Positions 34,903-36,035 of a DNA stretch of 64,000 nt are shown here, piece after piece. The stretch is from the NCBI RefSeq assembly GCF_000313755.1, contig NZ_AMZB01000138.1, forward strand, positions 62,001-126,000. The letters run 5' to 3'. The notes under the pieces are model-generated. The model was not told the origin of the DNA and did no database searches. It saw only the letters and a program-made list of their open reading frames with translations. The stretch's first letter is position 1. The number at the start of each line of letters is the position of its first letter. The DNA is from Pseudomonas nitroreducens TX1 (GTDB lineage Bacteria > Pseudomonadota > Gammaproteobacteria > Pseudomonadales > Pseudomonadaceae). Both the position numbers and the translations under genes were made by a program.

Positions 34903-34931
34903 GCAAAAAAACGGGCGACCTAAGTCGCCCG
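34903..34931 (-). terminator. terminator of the PhrS-like transcript
   Basis: On the minus strand CGGGCGAC, loop TTAG, GTCGCCCG, then seven T residues. It marks the 3' end of the transcript that carries the 36-residue ORF. Confidence 0.9.
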
Positions 34932-34964
34932 AAGTGCCTTGCGTGCTCTGTGAATCTGTAAGGA

Positions 34965-35075
34965 TCAGCTCTTCTTGTGGCTGTCCTTCCAGATGAAAAT
35001 TCCGACCCCACCGAAGAACAGAACCATGAGACCAACGGTAAGGACGCCTGCGAGAACCACTTCGTCGATGAACAT
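34965..35075 (-). CDS. ccoM: 36-residue single-helix membrane peptide, CcoM-like (cbb3 oxidase subunit)
   Basis: The ATG at 35075 has a strong AGGAGG 9 nt upstream. The product begins MFIDEVVLAGVLTVGLMVLF and continues FGGVGIFIWKDSHKKS: a short N-terminal segment, one membrane helix and a basic C-terminal tail. This closely resembles CcoM, the small subunit found in the cbb3-type cytochrome c oxidase of P. stutzeri, as I remember that sequence. The frame is inside the PhrS-like transcript under an Anr-type promoter, which suits a low-oxygen oxidase subunit. It is too short for usual gene-calling limits. The frame, ribosome site and helix are seen directly; the CcoM function is inferred. Confidence 0.8.
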   Translation of the reverse strand: MFIDEVVLAGVLTVGLMVLFFGGVGIFIWKDSHKKS

Positions 35076-35117
35076 GATGCTGGCCTCCTGTTGCCTACAT
35101 CGTCTGGGGATGTGTGC

Positions 35118-35158
35118 AGATTACCGGCGACCGGGCGGCGCAAATTGACCTGGGTCAA
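35118..35158 (-). promoter_or_regulatory. Anr/Dnr-type promoter of the PhrS-like locus
   Basis: TTGACCTGGGTCAA at 35145-35158 is a perfect FNR-family dyad (TTGAC-N4-GTCAA). On the minus strand 21 nt separate it from a -10-like TAATCT (35123-35118). With transcription starting near 35110-35111, the box centre is at about -41, the class II activator position. Confidence 0.82.
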
Positions 35159-35277
35159 TGGTCGACAAAGCGCTTTCCGGGGAGGGCCGCAGCACTGACG
35201 CAGGTCAAGTTTCCGGAGGGGTGCGGTGCGGCGGGAAGCCGCGCAGAGCGGGGCCTTGCGGCCCTGGGAGGGGGAAA

Positions 35278-35439
35278 TCAGCGTTTCTTCGGCTTGCTTT
35301 TGCCCTTCTTGCTCGGCTTGCCCAGCGGCAGCGCCTGCTCGAAGGCCTTGCGCACGTCCTGCAGACGCTTTTCGTGCACGTCATGGATGCGCTTGTCGCG
35401 CTCGGCGGTGAAGTCGATCAGCTTGTCGTCGTTGCTCAT
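35278..35439 (-). CDS. small basic hypothetical protein downstream of alkB
   Basis: The 53-residue protein (MSNDDKLIDFTAERDKRIHD then VHEKRLQDVRKAFEQAL) is charged and helical and ends in a lysine-rich tail (GKPSKKGKSKPKKR). No domain is recognised; the basic tail suggests nucleic-acid contact, which is only a guess. Its ATG overlaps the alkB stop codon (ATGA), so it is translationally coupled to it. The frame is open further upstream inside alkB, but the overlap start is the natural one. Confidence 0.7.
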   Translation of the reverse strand: MSNDDKLIDFTAERDKRIHDVHEKRLQDVRKAFEQALPLGKPSKKGKSKPKKR

Positions 35440-36035
35440 GACAGGGCATGCACCAGGCGGAAAGTCAGGTTCAGGCGCGAAGCAACCGGACGGCGTGTCT
35501 TCGCGACCTGATGCTGCCAATAATGCTGTGTCGCGCCAGACATGACCAGCAGCGAACCGCCAGGCAGCTCGATGGAATGTTCGATTGTGTTTCGCCCCTT
35601 GCGCCGCAGGTCGAAGCGCCGCGTACCGCCCAGGTTCAGCGAGGCCACCACCGGGTTGCGCCCGAGTTCAGGCTCGTCGTCGCTGTGCCAGCCCATGGAG
35701 TCCTGGCCGTCGCGATAGTAGTTGAGCAGCACGCCGTTGAAGCGCTGGCCGGCGGCCTGCTCCACCGCCGAGCGGATTTCCGCCAGCAGCGGCGTCCAGG
35801 GCAGCGGCGCGTGGGTCTGGCCGGAATAGGTATAGAAAGCCGCGGGATCGCCATACCAGTTGACCAGGCGCGGCACCGGGTAATCGCGCCCATGCAGGTG
35901 CACGACGGTCTGCTCCCAGGGCGTCTCGGCAACCAGTTGCTGCAGCCAGCGCTCGGCGCGCTCGGGTGGGCACCAATCGGGAATCAGGCGCAGTTCGGCA
36001 TCGGGCAGCAGGATGGGGGCGTCGTCGAACAGCAT
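35436..36035 (-). CDS. AlkB-like 2-oxoglutarate/Fe(II) dioxygenase
   Basis: The 199-residue protein has the iron-binding HxD at 117-119 (GWHSDDE), a distal His at about 175 (YWQHQVAK) and the 2-oxoglutarate-binding arginines at 187 and 193 (SRLNLTFR). NYYRDGQDSMGWHSD is typical of the ALKBH2/3-like group, which reverses 1-methyladenine and 3-methylcytosine damage in nucleic acids by oxidation. It follows a small acidic/basic protein gene and is coupled to the 53-residue gene, forming a three-gene operon. As I recall, PA3306 is the P. aeruginosa counterpart. Confidence 0.9.
   Translation of the reverse strand: MLFDDAPILLPDAELRLIPDWCPPERAERWLQQLVAETPWEQTVVHLHGRDYPVPRLVNWYGDPAAFYTYSGQTHAPLPWTPLLAEIRSAVEQAAGQRFNGVLLNYYRDGQDSMGWHSDDEPELGRNPVVASLNLGGTRRFDLRRKGRNTIEHSIELPGGSLLVMSGATQHYWQHQVAKTRRPVASRLNLTFRLVHALS

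Follow-up and report, generated by a model that had tools for sequence, protein, structure and literature searches.

We identified on the minus strand of the window (the whole stretch of 64,000 nucleotides of Pseudomonas nitroreducens TX1 analysed here) a locus that is an intact and ordinary member of two known families, PhrS and CcoM. Sequence comparison indicates that the peptide encoded within PhrS is CcoM, a subunit of the cbb3 cytochrome c oxidase, and that one and the same gene gives PhrS and CcoM. The unusual point is that the two are a single RNA, each half of which is found separately in some lineages. We consider it very probable that this one Anr-driven RNA of the PhrS family has two separable functions, as the mRNA of an oxidase subunit and as an old base-pairing sRNA whose ancestral targets would have been other than pqsR.

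The features of the locus are listed in Table 1. The original prediction had described a PhrS-like RNA carrying a CcoM-like peptide under an Anr box, and every element that it named (the dyad, the TAATCT hexamer, the AGGAGG, the 36-codon ORF, and the terminator) is present in the sequence. From the spacing to the Anr box, the RNA probably starts near position 35111, which gives a predicted length of 208 nt down to 34904, where about 209 nt had been proposed. The 5' end of the Rfam PhrS match overlaps the -10-like hexamer. A covariance-model search, which had been suggested as the check on the PhrS name, upheld it with a full-length match to RF01673 (177.1 bits for a gathering score of 37). Genome G121 gave the highest PhrS score of our survey (204.1 bits). 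Its PqsR match, 100% over residues 1-232, marks this genome as P. aeruginosa-type, and the 37-codon frame that had been named for P. aeruginosa PhrS was found in its PhrS locus. The alkB neighbor had also been named correctly, with an AlkB-like gene at 35436-36035. Among the fetched loci, an AlkB-like neighbor was present in 8 of 18 genera, and the small gene that separates it from PhrS in 13 of 18. A chance or antisense ORF was excluded by the Rfam and NCBIfam scores and by the wide conservation. Of note, the window also contains the Rfam sRNAs P18 (32648-32782, 80.3 bits) and P17 (9307-9557, minus strand, 76 bits).

Table 1. Features of the phrS-ccoM locus, in window coordinates
Feature	Position	Strand	Basis
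Second, upstream Anr-like dyad TTGACCTGCGTCAG	35195-35208	minus	50 bp from first box
Anr/FNR-type box TTGACCCAGGTCAA	35145-35158	minus	TTGAY-N4-RTCAA pattern match
-10-like hexamer TAATCT	35118-35123	minus	spacing to box
PhrS RNA (Rfam RF01673)	34904-35121	minus	177.1 bits, model 1-212 of 212
Likely PhrS transcript	about 34904-35111	minus	start inferred from Anr spacing
Shine-Dalgarno AGGAGG of ccoM	35084-35089	minus	read directly
ccoM, 36 aa, predicted cbb3 cytochrome c oxidase subunit	34965-35075	minus	NCBIfam, PDB 5djq_N, pN/pS
Putative creg seed GCACGCAAGGCA, 12 nt	34935-34946	minus	exact 12-mer, conservation across genera
Intrinsic terminator	34905-34931	minus	stem 34912-34931, T run 34905-34911

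The resemblance of the peptide to CcoM, noticed in the original prediction, proved to be strong. The NCBIfam model NF041600 (cyt_ox_CcoM) matched the 36 residues with 74.1 bits, against an equivalog cut-off of 40, while a Pfam search with the same peptide returned no match. Among solved structures, the match was chain N of 5djq (E=9.6e-14), which has the same length, is identical at 26 of 36 residues, and is labeled in the PDB only as 'Putative uncharacterized protein'. We take 5djq to be the structure of the P. stutzeri cbb3 oxidase. We then searched 56 genomes of genus g15, taken as a P. stutzeri-like genus by its similarity to 5djq_N; a match was found in 55 of them and the exact 5djq_N protein in three. 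These three ORFs sit inside Rfam PhrS matches (157.7, 158.9, and 157.7 bits), and their loci have the seed and the terminator in addition to two Anr-type dyads. The PhrS ORF of G121 (37 residues) encodes the same protein, with 30 of its first 33 residues as in the window. The location of the 5djq_N genes inside PhrS matches, together with the NF041600 match, therefore identifies the PhrS peptide as CcoM at the sequence level. The window genome (G000) also contains ccoN (best E 3.6e-221), so that a cbb3 oxidase is encoded alongside CcoM. That the frame is conserved in related genomes, as the coding claim had demanded, is supported by a pN/pS of 0.20 (822 within-genus pairs, codons 2-30; 0.06 to 0.51 per genus) and by variation mostly at third positions (identities of 0.72, 0.79, and 0.46 at codon positions 1, 2, and 3 in representatives of 13 exact-seed genera). 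These values indicate that ccoM is under purifying selection.

To describe the distribution of both parts, we used a survey of 148 Pseudomonadaceae genomes and a wider set of 321 genomes drawn from the class. RF01673 was detected in 143 of the 148 genomes at E<=0.001, with 129 over the cut-off and several of the rest being tail-only matches. CcoM was found in 125 (124 over the cut-off) and PqsR in three at E<=1e-30. In the class set, CcoM exceeded its cut-off in two genomes, both Pseudomonadaceae, and the same two were those with the seed-terminator pattern; outside the family, there were two weak CcoM matches (22.6 and 21.8 bits). Both parts thus look confined to Pseudomonadaceae at this sampling.

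The promoter pattern extended across the family. A TTGAY-N4-RTCAA box was present at -71 to -101 of the ATG in all 125 ccoM loci, compared with 0.000 of base shuffles, and is therefore not due to chance. A TANNNT hexamer followed the box by 21-22 nt in at least 114 of the 125 loci and was absent in eight, in agreement with the box and correctly spaced -10-like hexamer of the original prediction and forming an Anr-type promoter pattern. A second dyad (>=7/10 positions) was located 49-51 bp upstream in 81 of the 125 loci, against 0.6 on average for other spacings. Sites near -41.5 and -91.5 resemble those of E. coli promoters that are tuned to low, not zero, oxygen. The second dyad may make expression respond to low oxygen instead of anoxia.

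Downstream of the ORF, the 12-mer GCACGCAAGGCA was exact in all ccoM loci of 13 of the 16 ccoM-bearing genera. The exceptions were g5, g7, and g19, for which 16 of the 22 fetched loci retained the core GCAAGG with changed flanks. In representatives of the 13 genera, which were chosen for the exact seed so that their seed identity reflects this choice, identity was 0.43 over the 12 nt that precede the seed and 0.36 over the final 30 nt ahead of the ATG. The seed-terminator pattern occurred once each in 118 of the 148 genomes, and the reversed control gave 0. A review places creg, 12 nt long, at positions 169-182 downstream of the ORF, in passages that do not spell out its letters (PMC9308961). 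The same 12-mer lies at nt 171-182 of the G121 PhrS match; we therefore take GCACGCAAGGCA as creg, by position.

We compared the presence of each part with that of ccoN in 147 genomes, leaving out G039 for its ambiguous match and counting as lacking ccoN six genomes with only E values of 3e-8 to 2e-6, which we took for other oxidases. CcoM and ccoN were both present in 122 genomes and both absent in 18, with CcoM only in two and ccoN only in five (Fisher p=1e-16, without correction for kinship). For the strict tail pattern, the comparison with ccoN gave p=0.56. CcoM presence therefore appears to follow ccoN, whereas the creg seed with its terminator appears not to. Indeed, the strict tail was found in 15 of the 23 genomes without CcoM, and another of these, G027, had an exact seed with an altered stem. 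Conversely, ccoN occurred without CcoM in five of the 147 scored genomes and in all four P. syringae-group genomes tested, and CcoM must therefore be dispensable for some cbb3 oxidases. These four genomes (P. caricapapayae, P. alliivorans, P. viridiflava, and P. avellanae, which we take to be of the P. syringae group) came from the tail scan itself, so that their tail is by selection. All four had an Anr-like box and ccoN, and CcoM was not found in them (best E about 0.9).

The clearest separation was seen in g6 (P. oryzihabitans, P. rhizoryzae, and relatives), in which the tail was present in 13 of 13 genomes and no ccoN match was better than 2.8e-8. P. oryzihabitans and P. syringae are oxidase-negative. 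In ten g6 loci ccoM was absent, yet an Anr box (0-1 mismatch) started 76-81 nt before the seed in all ten, and the RNA predicted there is about 75 nt long with two hairpins, its parts being a hairpin at the 5' end, the seed, and a terminator. The downstream FUSC-type gene was the same as in the window in all ten, which supports the orthology of these short loci with the window locus. The remaining three g6 genomes keep AlkB-side neighbors; a diverged CcoM-like ORF is present in two of them, and the third (G091) retains a decayed, 16-codon frame. Diverged CcoM-like ORFs without ccoN were present in G099 and G113, with a pN/pS of 0.20 for this one pair only; their peptide may be decaying or may have a role in another oxidase. 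P. matsuisoli (G013) had the box and the tail and lacked ccoM and ccoN. The g10 genomes G010 and G027 encode PhrS-like RNAs with a shortened, 22-residue CcoM-like helix as ORF, and G010 carries two such units in tandem. On the other side, ccoM was present in all 18 g5 genomes, of which 12 had the variant seed GCTCGCAAGGC and six had no recognizable tail within the 250 nt of search. Four g12 genomes (one 77% complete) lacked CcoM, ccoN, and the tail. The coding and sRNA halves thus appear separable, each being found without the other in some lineages, and comparative sequence alone gives independent evidence for a coding and a regulatory part, as expected of a dual-function RNA. Since both modules are family-wide and each has been lost alone, the data make neither simply derived from the other.

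The suggestion that this species may lack the PQS system agrees with a PqsR search of its genome, which gave no match at E<=1e-30. With PqsR in only three of the 148 genomes, the sRNA half would need targets other than pqsR in nearly all sampled carriers. Even where pqsR exists, the longest exact seed complement in its leader was 7 nt in G121, a length reached by 5.8% of shuffles, and 5 nt in G001 and G019. When G121 PhrS was scanned for duplexes with the pqsR leader, the eight best scores came from ORF stretches, not from creg. The published pqsR pairing thus receives weak support from our predictions and, if it occurs, would seem to be particular to the P. aeruginosa line. One of the eight was the 3' end of the G121 PhrS ORF, which has a predicted 11-nt pairing with the pqsR leader at the site of the creg 7-mer (-26.8 kcal/mol). 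The G121 pqsR match falls into two frames, with the break near residue 232.

According to the relevant part of a review, PhrS lowers cyoAB (PMC12101431). As a universal ancestral target, cyoA was not supported, since no consistent seed match was present in the seven leaders placed (from 30 loci fetched, 16 were over the CyoA cut-off and the ORF was placed in 7). One 7-mer match each was seen in two leaders (G121 and G000, both from the window's genus), for which rough arithmetic gives a chance of about one leader in ten; the other five had none. Several PhrS-carrying genera had no CyoA match over the cut-off among the 30 loci. An 11-nt seed complement had 178 matches in 30 genomes compared with 31 for the reversed control, a count that is uninformative because it includes the PhrS loci themselves and because the 11-mer can read as Ala-Leu-Arg codons. 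The rarity of PqsR and the short complements in its leaders would fit an RNA that is only the ccoM mRNA, with a tail that stabilizes the message or loads Hfq and with base pairing that arose later, in P. aeruginosa alone. We hold this to be unlikely, given that the seed and an Anr-type box persist without ccoM in the P. oryzihabitans group, P. syringae-group genomes, and P. matsuisoli, and that one 12-mer exact across 13 genera is unexpected for a mere 3' end.

The predicted accessibility of the seed was moderate, which speaks against pairing to some degree: across 102 full RNAs the median unpaired probability was 0.54, with only 0.39 in the window RNA; six of the short g6 RNAs had 0.60-0.67. 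An alignment of 10 related genomes (A1) showed the 5' hairpin, with 3 of 22 pairs overall changed on both sides and some hairpin pairs broken in one or two sequences. Folding of a MAFFT alignment in which differing terminators were mixed (A2) gave no usable structure. This moderate accessibility, together with an exact 12-nt conservation that seems to exceed what pairing with many targets would normally require, could suggest that creg binds an RNA-binding protein, or acts as a decoy for one, instead of being a pairing seed. This is very unlikely in view of the P. aeruginosa creg and CRISPR-leader mutants, which fit pairing in the account given in the relevant passages of PMC6700203, and of the GCAAGG core, which stays while its flanks change in the 16 g5, g7, and g19 loci. 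Finally, the idea of a regulatory RNA only, with its ORF untranslated or its peptide unused, is hardly tenable: although the P. aeruginosa ORF alone had no action on CRISPR (PMC6700203, in part) and lineages without the ORF exist, the frame has a pN/pS of 0.20 and varies mainly at third positions, a solved structure contains the same protein as one of its chains, and ccoM presence tracks ccoN.

We therefore return to one RNA with two functions. When oxygen falls, Anr would bind at about -41.5, and perhaps also at the second dyad near -91.5, and an RNA of roughly 208 nt would be started. The first part of this RNA would serve as the message for CcoM, a cbb3 oxidase subunit with a single helix, and the last part, the creg seed with the terminator, would act as a base-pairing sRNA. 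In the window species, with no detectable pqsR, the seed would act on other mRNAs. More broadly, and with less assurance, we favor the idea that PhrS is at root not a quorum-sensing RNA but an old, family-wide low-oxygen RNA that supplies a subunit of a high-affinity oxidase and resets other mRNAs through a near-invariant seed. Oxidase-less lineages would have stripped the coding part and kept an sRNA of about 75 nt, PQS and CRISPR control in P. aeruginosa would be later additions, and phrS-deletion phenotypes may partly be those of ccoM deletions.

In print, PhrS is handled as an sRNA in the passages available (PMC12101431, PMC6794450, PMC8545117) and its product is called an unnamed protein (PMC5521070). 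In P. aeruginosa, creg had an effect on CRISPR and the 37-aa ORF had none, according to the corresponding passages of PMC6700203. CcoM is presented as a 36-aa cbb3 subunit in a paper whose accessible text does not contain the word PhrS (PMC10433244). At the level of titles and the beginnings of abstracts, we found none that equates CcoM with PhrS. Annotation contains the link at least implicitly, because NCBI's CcoM model matches the PhrS ORF. A 2023 Hfq interactome paper reportedly described PhrS as a hub with many targets. Our analysis assigns, by sequence, a function to the PhrS peptide, which a 2022 review stated in its passage on PhrS remains to be elucidated (PMC9308961). If this is true, phrS knockouts remove both an oxidase subunit and an sRNA, and their low-oxygen phenotypes need separating. 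The genomes with the coding half only, the sRNA half only, or both offer a natural experiment.

Compared with known systems, the window locus shares with PhrS of P. aeruginosa a full-length match, an Anr-type box, an internal ORF, a terminator, and creg at the same place downstream of the ORF, and the neighboring genes there are as in most sampled genomes of the window's genus. It differs in that the window genome has no detectable pqsR, the best-described target, and in that the peptide has 37 residues in P. aeruginosa and 36 in the window. With P. stutzeri CcoM (NF041600; 5djq chain N), it shares 26 of 36 residues, the same length, and a gene inside a PhrS RNA, but the P. stutzeri protein is a chain in a solved structure, whereas the window CcoM is known from sequence. 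As in the dual-function RNAs SgrS/SgrT and RNAIII, covered in a section of PMC5521070, and VcdRP, as introduced in PMC8672173, one transcript would both code for a small protein and regulate. Unlike in these systems, the small protein here would have a structural role as a subunit of a respiratory enzyme, and some lineages carry only one half or only the other.
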